From Parvularcula mediterranea (GTDB lineage: Bacteria > Pseudomonadota > Alphaproteobacteria > Caulobacterales > Parvularculaceae), in the NCBI RefSeq assembly GCF_013085255.1, contig NZ_JABFCX010000003.1, positions 567,288 to 631,287 of the forward strand: 64,000 bases of DNA, given 5' to 3'. Below the pieces are notes generated by a model. It ran no database searches. It worked only from the letters and a program-made list of their open reading frames with translations, and was not told where the DNA came from. This document shows positions 57,406 to 64,000 of the stretch, one piece after another; the first letter of the stretch is position 1, and the number at the start of each line of letters is the position of its first letter. Position numbers and translations under genes: made by a program.

Positions 57406-58419
57406 ATGACGCTGAGCAGAATCGAAAGCATGACCGGCTGGCTGGCCGACGTACGGCTCACGAGCCGTGGACTTCAGCACAGGGAAACAGGGCACCGCGT
57501 GCCGCTCGATCCTAGTGGCCTGAAGGACATCTACCGTTGGATCGAGTTCGACCGCACCCTGCGCCGGGCACCGACCCTGCGTCGGGAGAAGCTGAAGATC
57601 TGTTTCACGCCCAAGCGTGCACGCCCCTGGTACTTCGCCCGCTCGATCGTCGACCATCTCGGCGCGGAGCTTGTGGAGAATCCGGCCGAAGCTGAGATCG
57701 TCTGGTCCTTCGAAGACGCGACCTTCACCAAACCGACCGTGGTGCCTGCCAACAAGATCGCCATCAATGCGCAGTGCACGGACGTCTCCAAGACGACCGT
57801 GGGTCGCATCAGCGAGATCGCGTTTGGCGAAAGCCTGACGGTCGACCCGCGGACCTATCACGGCAAGATGGTCATGAAGTCCGAGATCAACGGCGCCCAT
57901 GACGGCCGCATGGTCGAAGGCCCCGTCGCGCCGACCAAGGGCTTCGTCTACCAGCGCCTGATCGACAACCGCACCGGCGAAGGCATGGTCGAAGACCTGC
58001 GCACCACCATCGTTGGCGGTGAGCCTGTGCTCGTCTTCAAGAAGCGCCGATCCGAGGACGGACGATTCCTGAACTCCAATGACGAGGTGGAGCTTACGAG
58101 CCTCGACGCTGTCTTCTCTCAAGAGGAGCAGGAGGCGATCGGCGTTTTTGCAAAGACCATCAAGCTCGACGCAGGAGGACTCGATGTCCTCCGTGACCGG
58201 ACGAGCGGCAAGCTGTTCATCGTCGATGCCAACAAGACCGACATGGGCCCTCCCCTCGCCCTGCCGATGGCTGACAAGATGCTCGCCACGCGGCTCATGG
58301 CCGAGGCGCTCGAAGACTTCATCATGGGCGAGCGCGCCCTGCGCCCGGACGCCGATACCGGGTCCTTGCGCCCCGCTCCGTCCCAACGACCAACCGACCT
58401 TGTCGAGGCCGCCATCTGA
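57406..58419 (+). CDS. Uncharacterised ATP-grasp-like protein
   Basis: 337 residues, no signal peptide. The ATP-grasp outline is recognisable: MVMKSEINGAHDGRMVEGP, GFVYQRLIDN, a VEDLRTTIVGG strand, VLVFKKRR, and a late metal-site pattern FIVDANKTDMGPP (D/N residues). An ATG at 57430 is an alternative start. It is followed after 2 bases by an MBL-fold gene, then an NRDE gene, all on the plus strand. No characterised homolog is recognised; it may ligate an amino acid or sugar, but this is a guess. Confidence 0.7.
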   Translation: MTLSRIESMTGWLADVRLTSRGLQHRETGHRVPLDPSGLKDIYRWIEFDRTLRRAPTLRREKLKICFTPKRARPWYFARSIVDHLGAELVENPAEAEIVWSFEDATFTKPTVVPANKIAINAQCTDVSKTTVGRISEIAFGESLTVDPRTYHGKMVMKSEINGAHDGRMVEGPVAPTKGFVYQRLIDNRTGEGMVEDLRTTIVGGEPVLVFKKRRSEDGRFLNSNDEVELTSLDAVFSQEEQEAIGVFAKTIKLDAGGLDVLRDRTSGKLFIVDANKTDMGPPLALPMADKMLATRLMAEALEDFIMGERALRPDADTGSLRPAPSQRPTDLVEAAI

Positions 58420-58421
58420 CC

Positions 58422-59333
58422 ATGAGTATCCCCTACGTTAAGGACATTGCGTTCGAATATGGTCGCGTCGACCAGATCTCCCCGCTCATCAGGCGGGTGA
58501 TCGCCCGGAACCCTGGCTCCTTCACCTACACAGGGACCGGGGTCTATATCATTGGCCGGGGCGAAGTCGCCGTCATTGATCCGGGCCCGGAGCTTGAAGA
58601 GCATTTCGATGCGATCAAGGCAATCCTTGACGGGGAGACGATCACCCACGTTCTGGTGACGCACTCGCATATGGACCACTCGCCCCTTGCTGCTCCGCTT
58701 GCGGAATACGCAGGCTGCAAGACCCACGCGAAGGGCCCCGCCGTGCCGACGGACAGCGGCGTGCGGCTCGAAGCTGGCGATGACCTGCGGTTCAGGCCTG
58801 ACGTGACGATTGGCGACGGCTGGACCTGTTCAGGGCCCGGATGGACGATCGAGGCGATTGAGACGCCAGGGCATACGTCGAACCATGTCTGCTATGCCCT
58901 TCGCGAGGAGAACGCGATCTTCTCAGGCGACCATATCATGGGCTGGTCGACCTCCGTCGTCTCACCGCCTGACGGGAACATGACCGCCTATATCGACAGC
59001 TTGCGGAAGGTCCAGAAGCGTGGCTTCGCCACGATCTACCCCACCCACGGCGCGCCGATTTCAGAGGACACGGACGGCTTTATCGAGGCCTATATCCAGC
59101 ATCGCCTCCGGCGTGAGCGCGCCATCCTCTCAGCCATCGAAGCTGGCGACGAGAAGATCGTCGACATCGTCCGCACGGTCTACACCGATGTGGATCCCAG
59201 CCTTTACCCGGCGGCCTGTCACTCCGTCCTCGGACATATGATTGACCTGCACCAGCGGGGCCTGGTCCTGACCGATACGAAGGAAGCCGAGATTGGCTCT
59301 GCGTATCGCATGGCTGAGACTGTGAACGCCTGA
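58422..59333 (+). CDS. MBL-fold metallohydrolase (LACTB2/glyoxalase II-like)
   Basis: 303 residues. Metallo-beta-lactamase fold with the HxHxDH metal motif THSHMDHSPLA, then GHTSNHVCY and FSGDHIMGW, and a C-terminal winged-helix-like tail (residues about 215-290) typical of LACTB2. Such enzymes hydrolyse thioesters or act as RNases. Starts 2 bases after the ATP-grasp-like gene. Confidence 0.92.
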   Translation: MSIPYVKDIAFEYGRVDQISPLIRRVIARNPGSFTYTGTGVYIIGRGEVAVIDPGPELEEHFDAIKAILDGETITHVLVTHSHMDHSPLAAPLAEYAGCKTHAKGPAVPTDSGVRLEAGDDLRFRPDVTIGDGWTCSGPGWTIEAIETPGHTSNHVCYALREENAIFSGDHIMGWSTSVVSPPDGNMTAYIDSLRKVQKRGFATIYPTHGAPISEDTDGFIEAYIQHRLRRERAILSAIEAGDEKIVDIVRTVYTDVDPSLYPAACHSVLGHMIDLHQRGLVLTDTKEAEIGSAYRMAETVNA

Positions 59334-59340
59334 TTTTCTG

Positions 59341-60045
59341 ATGTGTACCCTCGTTGCCAAGCACACGGCCGAAGGCTGGCGCGTTGCCATGAACCGCGAC
59401 GAGGCGAAAACCCGCGCGGAAGGCGAGCCCCCTCGCCTCTGGCCTGACGTGCCGATGCTCGCCCCGTTCGATCCCGATGCCGGGGGCACGTGGATCGGCG
59501 CGCGGGCCGATGGAACGTGGGCCGCCATTCTCAACGGCTATCTCGACGATGGCTCCGAGGGCCACGTGACCAAGCCGAAGACCCGTGGGCGACTGATCCC
59601 TGAGATCCTGGCCGAGCGCTCGCCGGTGAAGGCCCTGCGCGAGATGGACCTCTCGCATACCCGCTCCTTCCGCCTTTGGATCGGCTGGGGCGGCGAGGTG
59701 ACGGAGTTTTTCTGGGACGGGCAGACGCTGACCGAGAACCATCTGCTTGCTGATGAGTGGCTGATGACGACGTCCTCATCACTCCGTCAGGACGATGTGA
59801 AAGCAGCCCGGCGTGCGGTGTTCAGCCAATGGCTGCACGATGGCGCTGCTCTGACGCCCGAAGGCCTTCCCCTACTCCTTACTGAACGCGGTCCTCTCGA
59901 CGCGGAGGAAGCGGTGCTGATGGAGCGGTCTTACTCCCACACGAAGAGCTGCACCCTGATCACCGCGGGGACACACGGGGTCAGGATGCAGCACTGGGAG
60001 GCTGACCGGCTCTCAGGCGAGCCGGTCGGGGATGTCAGGCTCTAG
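59341..60045 (+). CDS. NRDE family protein (TANGO2-like)
   Basis: 234 residues. Begins MCTLVAKH, with NRDE at about residues 18-21 and DAGGTWIGARADGTWAAILNGYL; these are the marks of the NRDE/TANGO2 family. N-terminal Cys2 may be the exposed nucleophile of an Ntn-like fold. Function unknown; TANGO2 proteins are linked to heme and lipid metabolism. Convergent with the DoxX-like gene, overlapping by 4 bases. Confidence 0.88.
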   Translation: MCTLVAKHTAEGWRVAMNRDEAKTRAEGEPPRLWPDVPMLAPFDPDAGGTWIGARADGTWAAILNGYLDDGSEGHVTKPKTRGRLIPEILAERSPVKALREMDLSHTRSFRLWIGWGGEVTEFFWDGQTLTENHLLADEWLMTTSSSLRQDDVKAARRAVFSQWLHDGAALTPEGLPLLLTERGPLDAEEAVLMERSYSHTKSCTLITAGTHGVRMQHWEADRLSGEPVGDVRL

Positions 60046-60575
60046 CGAGCCGGGACAAGGACCTTTGCAACGCCTTGGGCGATGGCTGCGACTTCTTTCC
60101 GGCGCAGTATCAGCATGGTCACCGAGAGCGTCCAGACGATCACCGCAGCGACGAACAGGCCGCCACCGTCATTGTTCGGATCAATACCGAGCGGCGTGAA
60201 CAGGTGGAAGCTGATGGCGCCTGTCATCACGGCGACAGCAACGGCGGAACCGAGAGCCTGAAGCCTGCGGGACTGCGGCAGCAAGCCGATCAGCAGGAGG
60301 CTCGAAGCGATGAGCTCGGCGGTGCCGATCGTGTACTGGCTGAAGAGGCCGGTCTGGGCGAAGAGGCCCTCGGCACCGAAACTCGCAGCCCAGCCGTCGA
60401 GGCGGCCGAAGATTTCCTGCGTATTCGGATGGTTGGTGAACTTGTAGCGCAGCGAGTCCAGAAAAATGGCGGAGGTGAAAAGCGCAATCCCGACAGGGAC
60501 GAAGCTCTTCACGCGGCTCAGAATGCTCTTGGACGTAGTAGCAACGGTTGCATCGGCAGTGATCTCAGCTTGCAT
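60042..60575 (-). CDS. DoxX-like membrane protein
   Basis: 177 residues, four predicted TM helices, with the early loop LDSLRYKFTNHPNTQEIFGRL and mid TGLFSQYTIGTAELIASSLLLI typical of DoxX/DoxD-like proteins. ATG at 60575 has GAGGA upstream; the frame to 60650 is rejected. Role unknown; DoxX proteins are sometimes tied to redox stress. Confidence 0.7.
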   Translation of the reverse strand: MQAEITADATVATTSKSILSRVKSFVPVGIALFTSAIFLDSLRYKFTNHPNTQEIFGRLDGWAASFGAEGLFAQTGLFSQYTIGTAELIASSLLLIGLLPQSRRLQALGSAVAVAVMTGAISFHLFTPLGIDPNNDGGGLFVAAVIVWTLSVTMLILRRKEVAAIAQGVAKVLVPAR

Positions 60576-60687
60576 GATCTTCCTCGTAGAATGTCTCATC
60601 CACCTGTTCGCCAGATCACCGGGGAAGTTACGAAAAGACGCTGCCTCCATTCACAAGGATAGATTTTCTGAACGCTGCGGGCTGCGT

Positions 60688-60748: not shown

Positions 60749-62371
60749 GTGAGAAAAGTATCCGTTGCGCGTTTCAAGCAGCTCGAAGACAGGAAGCCTG
60801 TCCACGCCCTCGTGGAGAATGTCGACCTGGTCGTGACCCGCTATGACAAGGAGGTCTCGGTCCTCTACGGCCGGTGCCTGCATCGCGGCGCTCTGATGGC
60901 TGACGGTTTCGTGGATGAGAACGACAACCTGATCTGCGGGGTGCACAATTGGGACTACCGCGTCGATACCGGTGTGTCCGAGTACGACAATTCCGAAGTG
61001 CTGCATAAGTTCACCTCCTGGGTGAAGAGCGGCCATGTCTATGTCGATGCCGACGAGATCGCCGCCTGGCACAAGGACAATCCCCAGCCCTTTGACCGGG
61101 AACAGTATCTTGGTCAGTACCAGGACACTTCTCACGGCACGGATGAAGAGCCCGAGAACGCTTTCATCCAGTCCCTCGCGCGCGATGGCCTCAAGAAGGT
61201 TGGCCATCACGGCCCTATCGATGCGATGGGCGTTCCGAGGGCAGAGCTTCCGAAGTGGGAAGACATACAAATCCTGACGGCCCAGCTTCACCGCATGCCG
61301 CTGCTTGATGGTGAGCCTGTCTCGACCGAAACGGTGATCGGGCCGAGGGCGAAGAAGCCGCTGACGCTCAGCATACCGCTCTTTGTTTCCGACATGAGCT
61401 TTGGTGCCCTGTCCGAACCTGCGAAGCTCGCACTGGCCCGCGGAGCAGAGCTTGCCGGGACGGGCATCTGCTCTGGCGAAGGGGGGATGCTTGGAGAGGA
61501 GCAGTCTTCCAACAGCCGCTACTTCTACGAGCTGGCATCGGCACGCTTCGGTTTCTCCTGGGACAAGGTCGAGCGCTGCCAGGCCTTCCACTTCAAGGGT
61601 GGGCAAGGGGCGAAGACCGGCACGGGCGGGCACCTCACCGGCAACAAGGTCGTCGGCAAGATCGCCGAGACCCGCGGCTTGCCAGAGGGCACGCCAGCCA
61701 TCTCGCCCGCGCGCTTCCCGGAATGGACCGAGGTCAGTCAGATCCGCGATTTCGCCGAGGAAGTCCGCACGCGGACAGGCGGCATCCCCATTGGCTACAA
61801 GCTCTCGGCGCAACACATCGAAAAGGATATCGACGCCGCGCTCGAGGTCGGGGTCGACTACATCATCCTCGACGGCCGGGGCGGCGGCACCGGCGCAGCG
61901 CCCCTCCTCTTCAGGGACAACATCTCCATCCCGACGATCCCTGCGCTTGCAGTCGCGAGGGCGCATCTTGATCGTCAGGGTGCGTCAGACGTTTCGCTCG
62001 TGATCACAGGCGGGCTCCGCAAGCCTGAGGACTTCGTCAAGGCACTGGCACTAGGTGCGGACGCGGTGGCGCTATCGAACTCGGCTATGCAGGCCATCGG
62101 TTGCATCGCCATGCGCGCCTGCCACACGGACAATTGCCCGGTCGGGATCGCCAGCCAGAAGCCGGAGCTCACCAACCGCCTCGTGGTCGAGAAATCAGCG
62201 CGGAGACTGGCGAACTTCTTCGAAGCCTCCACCGAGCTGATGAAAGTCCTCGCCCGCGCCTGCGGCCACCGGAGCCTGAGCGGTTTCGGCAAGGATGATC
62301 TGGCCACGTTCAAGGAAGATATTGCGGACCTGACGGGCATCTACATGCCCTCGGTCGGGAGGATGCGATGA
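60749..62371 (+). CDS. Rieske [2Fe-2S] - glutamate synthase-like (GltB central domain) fusion
   Basis: 540 residues. N-terminal Rieske domain: Cys43-Leu-His45 (GRCLHRGAL) and Cys63-x2-His66 (ICGVHNW). Then a linker and an FMN-binding glutamate synthase domain (about 170-540): VSDMSFGALSEPAKLALARGA, GGQGAKTGTGGHL, KLSAQHIEKDI, DGRGGGTGAAPLLF. The 3Fe-4S cysteines of GltB are present: Cys-x5-Cys-x4-Cys in GCIAMRACHTDNCPVGIASQ. The glutaminase and alpha-domain ends of GltB are missing, so it is not a complete GOGAT; it may accept electrons at FMN and pass them to the Rieske cluster. Start GTG at 60749, AGAAGGG upstream. Next gene overlaps as ATGA. Confidence 0.92.
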   Translation: MRKVSVARFKQLEDRKPVHALVENVDLVVTRYDKEVSVLYGRCLHRGALMADGFVDENDNLICGVHNWDYRVDTGVSEYDNSEVLHKFTSWVKSGHVYVDADEIAAWHKDNPQPFDREQYLGQYQDTSHGTDEEPENAFIQSLARDGLKKVGHHGPIDAMGVPRAELPKWEDIQILTAQLHRMPLLDGEPVSTETVIGPRAKKPLTLSIPLFVSDMSFGALSEPAKLALARGAELAGTGICSGEGGMLGEEQSSNSRYFYELASARFGFSWDKVERCQAFHFKGGQGAKTGTGGHLTGNKVVGKIAETRGLPEGTPAISPARFPEWTEVSQIRDFAEEVRTRTGGIPIGYKLSAQHIEKDIDAALEVGVDYIILDGRGGGTGAAPLLFRDNISIPTIPALAVARAHLDRQGASDVSLVITGGLRKPEDFVKALALGADAVALSNSAMQAIGCIAMRACHTDNCPVGIASQKPELTNRLVVEKSARRLANFFEASTELMKVLARACGHRSLSGFGKDDLATFKEDIADLTGIYMPSVGRMR

Positions 62372-62592
62372 GCACGGACCTTGCTGCGCAGATTTGGGGC
62401 GTGATCGGGATCTACCTCGGAGTGGGGCTTCTCTTTGCCCTTCTCTACGTCTCGCTGATCGTTGGGCGCATAGATCCTGACGCTGCCAAGGCGAAGGTCT
62501 GGGTGAAGATCATTCTCATCCCGGGTGTGATGCTTCTCTGGCCGATGATGCTTTACCGCACGATTTTCTGGAAAGGGCCACCCGTCCGATGA
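62368..62592 (+). CDS. Small two-TM membrane protein of the Rieske operon
   Basis: 74 residues with two hydrophobic helices (about 8-32 and 44-64) joined by a short basic loop (GRIDPDAAKAKVWVK). It overlaps the Rieske-GltB stop and the next small gene as ATGA, so its synthesis is coupled. No family recognised. It may be a subunit or membrane anchor for the redox complex. Confidence 0.75.
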   Translation: MSTDLAAQIWGVIGIYLGVGLLFALLYVSLIVGRIDPDAAKAKVWVKIILIPGVMLLWPMMLYRTIFWKGPPVR

Positions 62593-62741
62593 AACGTGGA
62601 CAGATGAACCGCCACCGCTTCGTTTGGGTCATCCTCGCGCCCGTCATGGCTGTCACGATTGCTGGCGCACTGATGGTGAAGCCCGGTGAGGGATCCGGAA
62701 GCAGCGAAAACCTCCCAGCCTTTCTGACGGAGGGCCGCTGA
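62589..62741 (+). CDS. 50-residue membrane microprotein of the Rieske operon
   Basis: 50 codons from ATG 62589 to TGA 62739-62741. Basic N-terminus (MKRGQMNRHRF), one TM helix (about 12-30, VWVILAPVMAVTIAGAL), then a Gly/Ser-rich polar tail. It shares an ATGA overlap with the gene upstream and stops 2 bases before the next ATG. The dense packing supports that it is expressed. Function unknown; likely a small subunit. Confidence 0.65.
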   Translation: MKRGQMNRHRFVWVILAPVMAVTIAGALMVKPGEGSGSSENLPAFLTEGR

Positions 62742-62743
62742 CC

Positions 62744-63793
62744 ATGGCGCATGATTATAAGGCCATCCAGTGGACGCCGTTCAAGAAACGGTACGACCTG
62801 TTCCTTCTGTTAGGTGTCGCCACTTACCTCGTCCTGTTCTTCGTTTTCACCGCAGGCGGACAACCGGACGGCGAGAGCCTGCACCCGGTGCAGATCGCGA
62901 TTGCAGCGACGGGCAGCCTCTCCTTCCTTATGCTGACCTTCATTCTGTCGATCGGCCCGCTCGCGCGGTTCACCGACCGGATGAAGCCGTTCCTCTACAA
63001 CCGCAGGCATGTCGGTGTGGCGACATTTATCATCGCTCTTCTCCACGCAGCGCTGGTGGTGATATGGTATCACGGCTTCAGCGAGACGAACGTCTTCGTT
63101 TCGCTGCTGGCCTCGAACCCGCGGTACAGCTCGCTCCAAGGCTTCCCGTTCGAGAGCCTAGGCGTCGCCGCGTTTTTCATCCTTTTCCTCATGGCCGCGA
63201 CGAGCCATGACTTCTGGAACGCCCACCTCGGGCCAGGGCTATGGAAAGCACTGCACATGCTGGTGTACGTCGCTTTCGCTTTGCTGGTCGGCCACGTGAT
63301 GTTTGGCTTCGTTCAGGACCAGACGAGCATCGTCTATCCGGTTCTTGTCGGCAGCTCGGCCCTGTGGGTCAGTGGCCTGCATATCGCCGCCGGGTTCAAG
63401 AGCGCGACACCGTCGGACGTGCACCTTGGCCGGTTTATCGAGGTGGCCGAGGTCTCCGCCTTCGAGGAGGGGCGTGCACGGATCGTGACGCCGTCCAAAG
63501 GCGAGCGCATCGCCGTCTTCCTCCACAAGGGGAAGCTGTCCGCGATCTCGAATGTCTGTCGCCACCAGGGGGGGCCGCTTGGGGAAGGACGGGTGATCGA
63601 CGACTGCGTCACCTGCCCCTGGCATGGGTTTCAGTACCGCCTCGAGGATGGCCGCTCGCCTGAGCCTTTCTCGGAGAAAGTCGCGACCTACAGTGTGAAG
63701 GTCGAAGACGGCATGGTCTTTGTGGACTCAGAGCCGAAGGAACCCGGCACCCGAACCGAACCCGTCAGCCTGCATGGTGAGGACGCGCTATGA
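62744..63793 (+). CDS. Ferric-reductase-like cytochrome with C-terminal Rieske domain
   Basis: 349 residues. Residues about 18-217 hold six TM helices with several conserved His (101, 110, 171, 184), as in ferric reductase/YedZ-type transmembrane domains that bind two b-hemes. Residues about 225-330 are a Rieske [2Fe-2S] domain: Cys272-x-His274 (VCRHQGGPL) and Cys291-x2-His294 (TCPWHGF), with an additional Cys288. This is a rare arrangement: heme membrane domain followed by a cytoplasmic or periplasmic Rieske. Starts 2 bases after the microprotein and ends in an ATGA overlap with the next gene. Confidence 0.88.
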   Translation: MAHDYKAIQWTPFKKRYDLFLLLGVATYLVLFFVFTAGGQPDGESLHPVQIAIAATGSLSFLMLTFILSIGPLARFTDRMKPFLYNRRHVGVATFIIALLHAALVVIWYHGFSETNVFVSLLASNPRYSSLQGFPFESLGVAAFFILFLMAATSHDFWNAHLGPGLWKALHMLVYVAFALLVGHVMFGFVQDQTSIVYPVLVGSSALWVSGLHIAAGFKSATPSDVHLGRFIEVAEVSAFEEGRARIVTPSKGERIAVFLHKGKLSAISNVCRHQGGPLGEGRVIDDCVTCPWHGFQYRLEDGRSPEPFSEKVATYSVKVEDGMVFVDSEPKEPGTRTEPVSLHGEDAL

Positions 63794-64000
63794 GTGACAA
63801 GGACGACTTCTTCATCGGCTGGTCTGCCGAGACGCCGAAGGCTGACCGGCGCTTTTTCATGCTGGCTGGCCTCGGGCTTCTCGCAGGAACGGGCGGCGCA
63901 GCGGCGCTTATCGGCGGGGCACAGGACGGCGGTGGTCCGGGTACGTGGGATCAGGGCGACATTCAGGAGTGGCGCGGGATCGCCAGCGCCCTTCCCTATC
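63790..64000 (+). CDS. Partial membrane-anchored protein of the Rieske operon
   Basis: The first 70 codons are present; the gene runs off the window. It opens MSDKDDFFIGWSAETPKADR, followed by a hydrophobic segment (FFMLAGLGLLAGTGGAAALIGG), i.e. a signal anchor, and a Gly-rich stretch. It overlaps the ferric-reductase-like gene by ATGA, so it belongs to the same operon. No domain visible yet. Confidence 0.7.
   Translation, partial: MSDKDDFFIGWSAETPKADRRFFMLAGLGLLAGTGGAAALIGGAQDGGGPGTWDQGDIQEWRGIASALPY

Follow-up and report, generated by a model that had tools for sequence, protein, structure and literature searches.

Genes and proteins of the locus

The end of a 64,000-nucleotide stretch of the Parvularcula mediterranea genome (contig NZ_JABFCX010000003.1, positions 567,288 to 631,287; the whole stretch is called the window) holds a run of five open reading frames (ORFs), here named A to E, which all lie on the plus strand and begin at window position 60749 (Table 1). 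B to E encode a conserved membrane module that includes D, a predicted heme protein bearing a Rieske domain, and A encodes a soluble enzyme with a Rieske domain of its own. An earlier note, made from the sequence alone, had described five same-strand genes joined by ATGA or 2-base junctions. The ORFs lie exactly there: A/B, B/C, and D/E share ATGA overlaps, and C and D are separated by a 2-base gap. The note had also seen E run off the window as an anchored protein and had proposed reading past position 64000. We extended the run with a 19-kb stretch from the same genome. The whole of E comprises 252 residues with one transmembrane (TM) anchor, and the gene ends 548 bases after position 64000. 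On the opposite strand, a convergent gene follows that overlaps the end of E by 4 bases; thus, the run stops at E. Scans for sigma-70-like promoters (none found, 0.6 expected) and terminator-like sites (three found, 2.9 expected) were uninformative.

For A, Pfam detected an N-terminal Rieske domain (E-value 8.3e-12), the Glu_synthase domain PF01645 (E-value 1.3e-86), and weaker matches typical of flavin mononucleotide (FMN) enzymes, and gave no glutaminase (class II amidotransferase) domain. When the profile of A was compared with solved glutamate synthases, the synthase region alone was matched (E-values up to 1e-10); relatives of the core in the PDB are 7mfm, 1ea0, and 1llw. The two Rieske ligand pairs (C43/H45 and C63/H66) and the [3Fe-4S] cysteines (C452, C458, and C463) were found as the note had described them. 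The four A sequences lacking the Rieske ligands are Rieske-less and have no residues at these positions. The GltB-type residues K283, K289, and R309 of A occur in all 42 A sequences, while in the QGAKxGxGGxLPG loop the Glu of GltB is replaced by an invariant Thr292 and the Gln by an invariant His295. We take the 2-oxoglutarate-binding residues of GltB to be among these loop and core positions.

The glutamate synthases (GOGAT) GltB and ferredoxin-GOGAT share the FMN and [3Fe-4S] synthase core with A. In contrast to GltB with its about 1500 residues, A has 540 residues, an N-terminal Rieske domain, no glutaminase domain, and B in place of gltD. In addition, a separate GltB-type frame of 1497 residues lies elsewhere in the window's genome. 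Because the glutaminase domain is missing, B follows, and a GltB frame exists elsewhere, we rejected an ordinary GOGAT identity for A, as the note had anticipated. By its sequence, A is a predicted GltB-core oxidoreductase distinct from the cell's glutamate synthase.

D matched the Pfam domains Ferric_reduct (E-value 7.2e-14) and Rieske (E-value 5.8e-14), and with 52.3 bits it belongs to the ferric reductase domain (FRD) family PF01794, whose gathering score is 28. Hydropathy gave six TM helices in 21 of 22 aligned D sequences and five in the remaining one, which bears out the note's six-TM protein with its own Rieske domain and allows it to be refined. Since most of the positive charge of D falls on the N terminus and loop 2-3, both termini, and hence the Rieske domain, are predicted to reside in the cytosol. 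Against the MsrQ equivalog model NF003831 of NCBIfam, D scored 48.5 bits, below the cut-off of 130. Nevertheless, R77, H91, H151, and H164 of Escherichia coli MsrQ, presumably its heme ligands, align with R87, H101, H171, and H184 of D. All 48 D sequences keep these four residues, H89, H155, and the four Rieske ligands, and 47 of them keep H213. In the AlphaFold2 model of D (pLDDT 84), the Rieske part resembled a carbazole-dioxygenase ferredoxin (E-value 2.8e-7) and the TM part human NOX5 and STEAP4 (E-values 4e-5 to 5e-5, TM-scores 0.40-0.45) among the 50 Foldseek structure matches shown.

The Rieske motifs read CLHRGA/CGVHNW in A and CRHQGG/CPWHGF in D. High-potential Rieske proteins of the bc1/b6f type carry a disulfide-forming extra cysteine beside each ligand motif, and no such second cysteine is present in the motifs of A or D. 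The potential of both centres is therefore likely to be lower and ferredoxin-like, which would suit electrons moving from FMN or a thiamine pyrophosphate (TPP) intermediate toward hemes and an outer acceptor.

The spacing of the histidines in D had pointed to the two-heme pattern of NOX. This assignment was rejected, as the MsrQ alignment places R87, and not H89, at the canonical first histidine position; the other three canonical histidines are present, and the invariant H89 follows two residues further on. According to the accessible text of Zhang et al. (2013; PMC3591440), an arginine at the first position marks the YedZ/STEAP type, and D was grouped there on that basis. The same text already includes, as architecture model M4, a bacterial FRD protein that bears a Rieske module; as far as it is accessible, it gives no function or partners for this form.

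B and C, which the note had called small membrane genes, are indeed ORFs with two and one predicted TM helices, and gave only weak matches under the cut-offs in Pfam and NCBIfam. For E, no family match was obtained in Pfam or NCBIfam up to an E-value of 1, and no sequence match in the PDB up to 10. We aligned it with 26 of its 28 relatives, which are 28-60 % identical to it, leaving out L021 (E in two frames) and L024 (contig-cut). The motif D161-x-K163-C164-x2-G-x-M169-x-P-x2-G-x2-H177-K-x-C180-A-x2-C184, encoded outside the window, is invariant in 27 of 27 sequences. AlphaFold2 (pLDDT 83) predicted one N-terminal TM helix and two beta-barrel-like sheets, with the motif placed in a short helical insertion within the second barrel, and Foldseek gave weak matches to the oligonucleotide/oligosaccharide-binding (OB) fold (best E-value 0.013). 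From its three cysteines, histidine, and methionine, we infer that the motif is a metal site, perhaps for copper, or a redox site. Shorter relatives, corresponding to the second domain only, were matched at 11 places in other Alphaproteobacteria. Five of these loci were inspected (proteins of 141-162 residues), and in three of them a gene for the SCO1/SenC copper chaperone lies two genes away. Together with the Cys/His/Met composition, this neighbourhood makes us lean toward copper.

In three loci (L063:4991-6526, L064:5839-7402, and L065:5742-7350), a short secreted relative of the second domain, a second Cys-rich protein, and SCO1/SenC (in two frames in L064) occur together, possibly as a periplasmic copper system.

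Table 1. Genes and sequence features of the run, in window coordinates
Feature	Position	Strand	Remarks
Gene A, Rieske-GltB core (no glutaminase domain)	60749-62371	+	540 residues, GTG start; Pfam
A Rieske ligands C43-x-H45 ... C63-x2-H66	60875-60946	+	38/42 A sequences
A [3Fe-4S] motif C452-x5-C458-x4-C463	62102-62137	+	42/42 A sequences
Gene B, two TM, conserved partner of D and E	62368-62592	+	74 residues; ORF, hydropathy
Gene C, one TM, conserved partner	62589-62741	+	50 residues; ORF, hydropathy
Gene D, six-TM MsrQ/FRD-like, C-terminal Rieske domain predicted cytosolic	62744-63793	+	349 residues
D putative heme-ligand region, R87/H89/H101 (TM3) to H171/H184 (TM5)	63002-63295	+	alignment
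D Rieske ligands C272-x-H274 ... C291-x2-H294	63557-63625	+	48/48 D sequences
Gene E, N-terminal part with TM anchor	63790-64000	+	remainder beyond window

Conservation of the module and its tie to gene A

The note had suggested a search for the five-gene neighbourhood in other Alphaproteobacteria and in Bacteroidetes. We scanned the genome collection with E alone as the query and obtained 28 loci, from Parvularcula, Henriciella, other Hyphomonadaceae, Oceanicaulis, Asticcacaulis, and Kordiimonas, and further from Phycisphaerae and other Planctomycetota, one acidobacterial metagenome-assembled genome (MAG), and one MAG called gammaproteobacterial. None of the 28 is named as Bacteroidetes, in a scan that reached close relatives and did not survey that group. 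D, whole or in part, adjoins E in 27 loci, and the contig of the 28th begins inside E. D and E are complete in 39 loci, of which 38 have a recognisable B and 35 a recognisable C. The models of B and C were built from the first 24 of these loci, so that the 23 hits for each are partly by construction; the exception is the acidobacterial MAG (L027), which has D-E. In the 15 independent loci, B was found in 15 and C in 12. One single ORF matches both the B and the C model in L018 and L057. Full-length D was present in 16 of 16 E-positive alphaproteobacterial genomes and in none of 50 E-negative ones tested. As a conserved module, B-C-D-E occurs in Alphaproteobacteria and Planctomycetota, and the D-E pair is also present in the acidobacterial MAG. 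The alignments used for A (14 sequences), D (22 and 23, the latter without L014), and the TPP enzymes described below (10) are subsets of the sequences fetched.

In the window and in half of the 28 loci (14), B is directly preceded by A, which is in two frames in L008 and contig-cut in L011 and L012. Nine loci (L018, L023, L025-L031) have the module and no A beside it; in five of them, the acidobacterial L027, the planctomycetal L025, L028, and L031, and L029, A is encoded elsewhere in the genome. A search of 14 genomes for A found it in seven, including those of L005 and the contig-cut L019. We then counted both genes genome by genome. Among 385 alphaproteobacterial genomes, 16 encode full-length E, 10 A with its Rieske domain, and eight both (Fisher p = 5e-11; relatedness is ignored in all Fisher tests given here). 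In two of the eight, A lies about 20 kb off, and in two on another contig. Among 246 planctomycetal genomes, for which the counts are without completeness values, E was found in 18 (17 full-length), A in 19, and both in eight (p = 7e-6). The membrane module occurs without A in 8 of the 16 and 10 of the 18 E-positive genomes, respectively. Genomes in which A is contig-cut or split over contigs were counted as A-positive (G346 in Alphaproteobacteria; G514, G621, and G433 in Planctomycetota), and so was G074, which is E-negative and 67 % complete. G414 was counted as E-positive with a match that spans model positions 145-248 alone. Rieske-less homologs of A (G022, G202, G211, G287, and weaker ones) were not counted.

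The surroundings of A also served to look for its substrate. Neighbours with DUF5996-like, AMP-binding, Na/H-exchanger, M20, and DHFR matches were considered, and none recurs often enough to name a pathway. Mutually related proteins are encoded beside A or the Rieske-TPP gene at L082:7047-7895 (with a DUF5996 match below the cut-off), L075:9365-10108, and L135:4220-5074. Related genes stand directly upstream of A at L058:9882-11264, L082:9533-10786, and L084:9663-10946, of which the one in L082 encodes a sodium/proton exchanger according to Pfam. The three alphaproteobacterial exchangers next to A share 47-62 % identity among themselves, and a haloarchaeal one is 29-35 % identical to them over 88-99 residues. 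Two Vibrio plasmid proteins (L114:5689-7239 and L115:5689-7239), encoded near genes for LysR-type regulators, are 66-67 % identical to residues 131-531 of A, with its Rieske domain unmatched. The neighbours of Rieske-less A homologs on two Vibrio plasmids and one Monoglobus plasmid gave no functional lead.

Upstream of the run, a DoxX/MauE-like membrane protein (Pfam matches below the cut-off) is encoded divergently on the minus strand at window 60042-60650; it fell into no cluster with neighbours from related loci. Also upstream, on the same strand, window 57406-60045 encodes a protein whose RimK-like ATP-grasp match is below threshold, a hydrolase of the metallo-beta-lactamase fold with a winged helix, and a TANGO2 protein.

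Rieske-TPP enzymes beside the module

Twelve loci have A beside the module and enough upstream sequence to read its neighbours. Eight of them (L007-L010, L013, and L015-L017) carry a divergent gene for a TPP enzyme with a Rieske domain, in two frames in L008, while none is found in L005, L020, and L022. In Kordiimonas (L032), the gene directly follows E. Pfam detected the N, M, and C domains of TPP enzymes in the L007 and L032 proteins, as in the pyruvate oxidase/acetolactate synthase family, from which the Rieske-TPP enzymes differ by their N-terminal Rieske domain. The best NCBIfam model for the L007, L032, and L013 proteins was pyruvate oxidase, with scores below the curated cut-offs among the 25 matches shown for each.

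Full-length Rieske-TPP is encoded in 13 of the 385 alphaproteobacterial genomes, six of which are E-positive (p = 2.7e-6), and all six are A-positive too; G346 was excluded from the test against E and included in that against A. In Planctomycetota, eight of the 10 genomes with Rieske-TPP are E-positive (p = 6e-9), with one match (G553) that covers part of the model. Three planctomycetal loci (L121, L122, and L123) show the order A, TPP, B, (C), D, E on one strand, with C recognised in L121 and L123. A gene for a DUF1622 protein lies between TPP and B in L121, and six alphaproteobacterial loci have DUF1622-type genes next to Rieske-TPP (L007 was the one scanned with Pfam). Searches of the window's genome found no Rieske-TPP, at an E-value of 1e-90, and no DUF1622. 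TPP enzymes of about 870 residues that combine two CDGSH stretches, Fer4_19, Rieske, and the full set of TPP domains are encoded at L079:6558-9188 and L078:7093-9705, in two scanned E-negative Alphaproteobacteria.

The two soluble enzymes also occur on haloarchaeal plasmids. In Halorarius halobius and Salinirubellus sp. SYNS196, the genes for Rieske-GltB and Rieske-TPP lie 4.0 and 1.4 kb apart, respectively (L109:975-8692 and L110:2627-7686). In the stretches read of these two plasmids, B, C, and E gave no match, and the matches to D were those of the TPP enzyme's Rieske domain alone. Their Rieske-GltB is 61 % identical to the alphaproteobacterial A, which suggests that a gene for this Rieske-bearing enzyme was transferred between domains of life. 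On a third plasmid, from Halorubrum salinarum, Rieske-GltB occurs by itself.

Proposed electron path and its alternatives

We propose that B-C-D-E is a transmembrane conduit of the MsrQ/NOX kind with a Rieske [2Fe-2S] domain as its cytosolic input, fed by Rieske-tagged enzymes and delivering electrons to E, a proposal that we judge equally apt to prove right or wrong. The Rieske domain of D would take the place of the flavin/NAD(P)H domain, and the donors would be soluble Rieske-bearing enzymes, namely A, the sole one of the two found in this genome, and Rieske-TPP in relatives. Electrons would pass from the substrate through FMN, [3Fe-4S], and the Rieske centre of A to the cytosolic Rieske centre of D, from there to the b-heme(s) of D, and on to E at the outer face. 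E, held by its N-terminal helix, would hand them to an outer acceptor, and B and C would be small membrane subunits of D/E. The sequences themselves show the genes and domains, the conserved ligand residues, the linkage and co-occurrence of the genes, and the predicted folds and topology; we infer cofactor binding, the Rieske-Rieske contact, the outward direction, the metal of E, the substrate, and the acceptor. Electron transfer among FMN, two kinds of Fe-S centre, and b-heme, as the note had imagined it, is a sensible reading of the domains. The outward direction is proposed because NOX and FRE proteins, according to the accessible text of PMC3591440, carry electrons from cytosolic NADPH to outer acceptors, and MsrQ, in the part of PMC5676040 that is accessible, hands electrons to periplasmic MsrP.

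Among the closest known systems is the periplasmic methionine sulfoxide reductase system MsrQ-MsrP (YedZ-YedY), in which a membrane b-heme protein of PF01794, with the four aligned residues, passes electrons across the membrane to a periplasmic partner, as we propose for D. In contrast to MsrQ, D has a C-terminal Rieske domain, the extra invariant H89 and H155, and the near-invariant H213. The MsrP molybdoenzyme is not beside D; the neighbour is E, which matches no molybdoenzyme family, and B, C, and soluble Rieske enzymes are encoded in addition. With the NOX/FRE/STEAP superfamily as far as PMC3591440 describes it, D shares the FRD transmembrane domain, whereas the cytosolic FAD/NADPH dehydrogenase domain of NOX was not detected in D by Pfam, and the Rieske domain stands there instead. 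Modular conduits of the MsrQ kind, in which the cytosolic donors and the extracytosolic acceptors vary, have been described as a class (PMC8238504). Those clusters, in contrast to this one, carry ApbE and FMN-binding proteins, and the word Rieske is absent from the main text of that paper. New here are the input modules, the two small membrane proteins, and the unclassified outer protein. The note knew of no characterised complex with this gene set, and we found no description of the system in the literature searched, which mostly excluded subscription journals and preprints.

Several observations weigh against the proposed conduit. Two of the 10 A-positive Alphaproteobacteria and 11 of the 19 A-positive Planctomycetota have A without the membrane module, and Rieske-TPP occurs without E in 7 of 13 and 2 of 10 genomes, respectively. 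On the haloarchaeal plasmids, both soluble enzymes are found with no D or E nearby. Conversely, at the thresholds applied, both A and Rieske-TPP are missing from 8 of 16 E-positive genomes in Alphaproteobacteria and from 9 of 18 in Planctomycetota, so that the module there must rely on other electron partners or serve a different purpose. As to E, no PDB structure match had an E-value below 0.001, and its Cys/His/Met motif could be structural. The tie between A and the module is strong and obligate in neither direction. The note had stated that homologs lacking the membrane genes would speak against its single membrane complex, and A does occur in this way. Of that complex, the B-C-D-E module and the redox reading of the domains stand, and A as an obligate subunit does not. 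A more apt view is that the membrane module is stable and has at least two Rieske-tagged partners, of which A is one.

That about half of the E-positive genomes have neither enzyme would also be expected if D traded electrons with the quinone pool and reduced E, with its Rieske domain serving a general reductase and A and Rieske-TPP being optional users. MsrQ is reportedly coupled to quinol/quinone, and D aligns with it at the four ligand positions; the window's genome moreover encodes another Rieske protein, which by eye resembles a fusion of Rieske and an FAD/NAD(P)H reductase. Against this, the A-TPP-B-D-E runs and the overlap of A with B point to a direct connection to Rieske-tagged enzymes, and we regard coupling to quinone as unlikely. 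Rather unlikely, in our view, is that E acts as a chaperone for copper or heme, with D as its reductase, and that the operon matures or repairs a periplasmic cofactor with no respiratory chain involved. The SCO1/SenC genes beside the short relatives of E would fit such a role, and known periplasmic OB-fold proteins include CusF and CcmE. No SCO1 was seen among the Pfam-scanned neighbours of full-length E, although most neighbours are unscanned, including a five-gene block adjoining E in several Henriciella-type loci.

Electrons might instead flow the other way, D supplying A, which would then work reductively like a glutaminase-less glutamate synthase or another amino-acid synthase. In its favour, the core of A retains GltB motifs, among them the [3Fe-4S] cysteines and the three basic residues present throughout the A sequences; against it, the Gln and Glu of the GltB loop are replaced by invariant residues. 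The potential of Rieske centres is, moreover, usually too high for a reduction of the glutamate-synthase type, and Rieske-TPP as the second partner would fit an oxidative donor better; we regard reverse flow as improbable. That A is an accidental neighbour and B-C-D-E alone the system we consider highly improbable: A is often unlinked or absent, but it co-occurs with E in two phyla, adjoins B in half of the relatives, and is encoded elsewhere in the genome in five of the nine module loci that lack it as a neighbour.

Beyond the conduit itself, we tentatively put forward, with more doubt than confidence, the wider picture of a "Rieske bus", in which one transmembrane b-heme conduit would take electrons, through Rieske-to-Rieske docking, from interchangeable soluble enzymes with a Rieske plug, of the FMN/[3Fe-4S] GltB and the TPP pyruvate-oxidase types, and deliver them to a new class of anchored periplasmic OB-like metalloproteins, the plug enzymes having spread across bacteria and haloarchaea by transfer.

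Heme proteins of the MsrQ kind are common, but for few of them is it known where the electrons come from or go to. In the present case, linkage and co-occurrence of the genes suggest both ends, with Rieske-tagged enzymes at the inner side as the source and a conserved, unclassified outer protein as the target. Cultured species in which the membrane module is open to testing include Rhizobium leguminosarum bv. trifolii WSM1689, where B, C, D, and E are RLEG3_RS31985, RS35040, RS31990, and RS31995. If the proposed conduit holds true, an FMN/[3Fe-4S] GltB-core oxidoreductase and an Fe-S-linked enzyme of the pyruvate-oxidase type would join the routes that feed electrons out through the membrane. 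Proteins annotated merely as "glutamate synthase-related" and "thiamine pyrophosphate-binding" would thereby gain a role, and E would define a novel outer-face protein family that carries a Cys/His/Met site.

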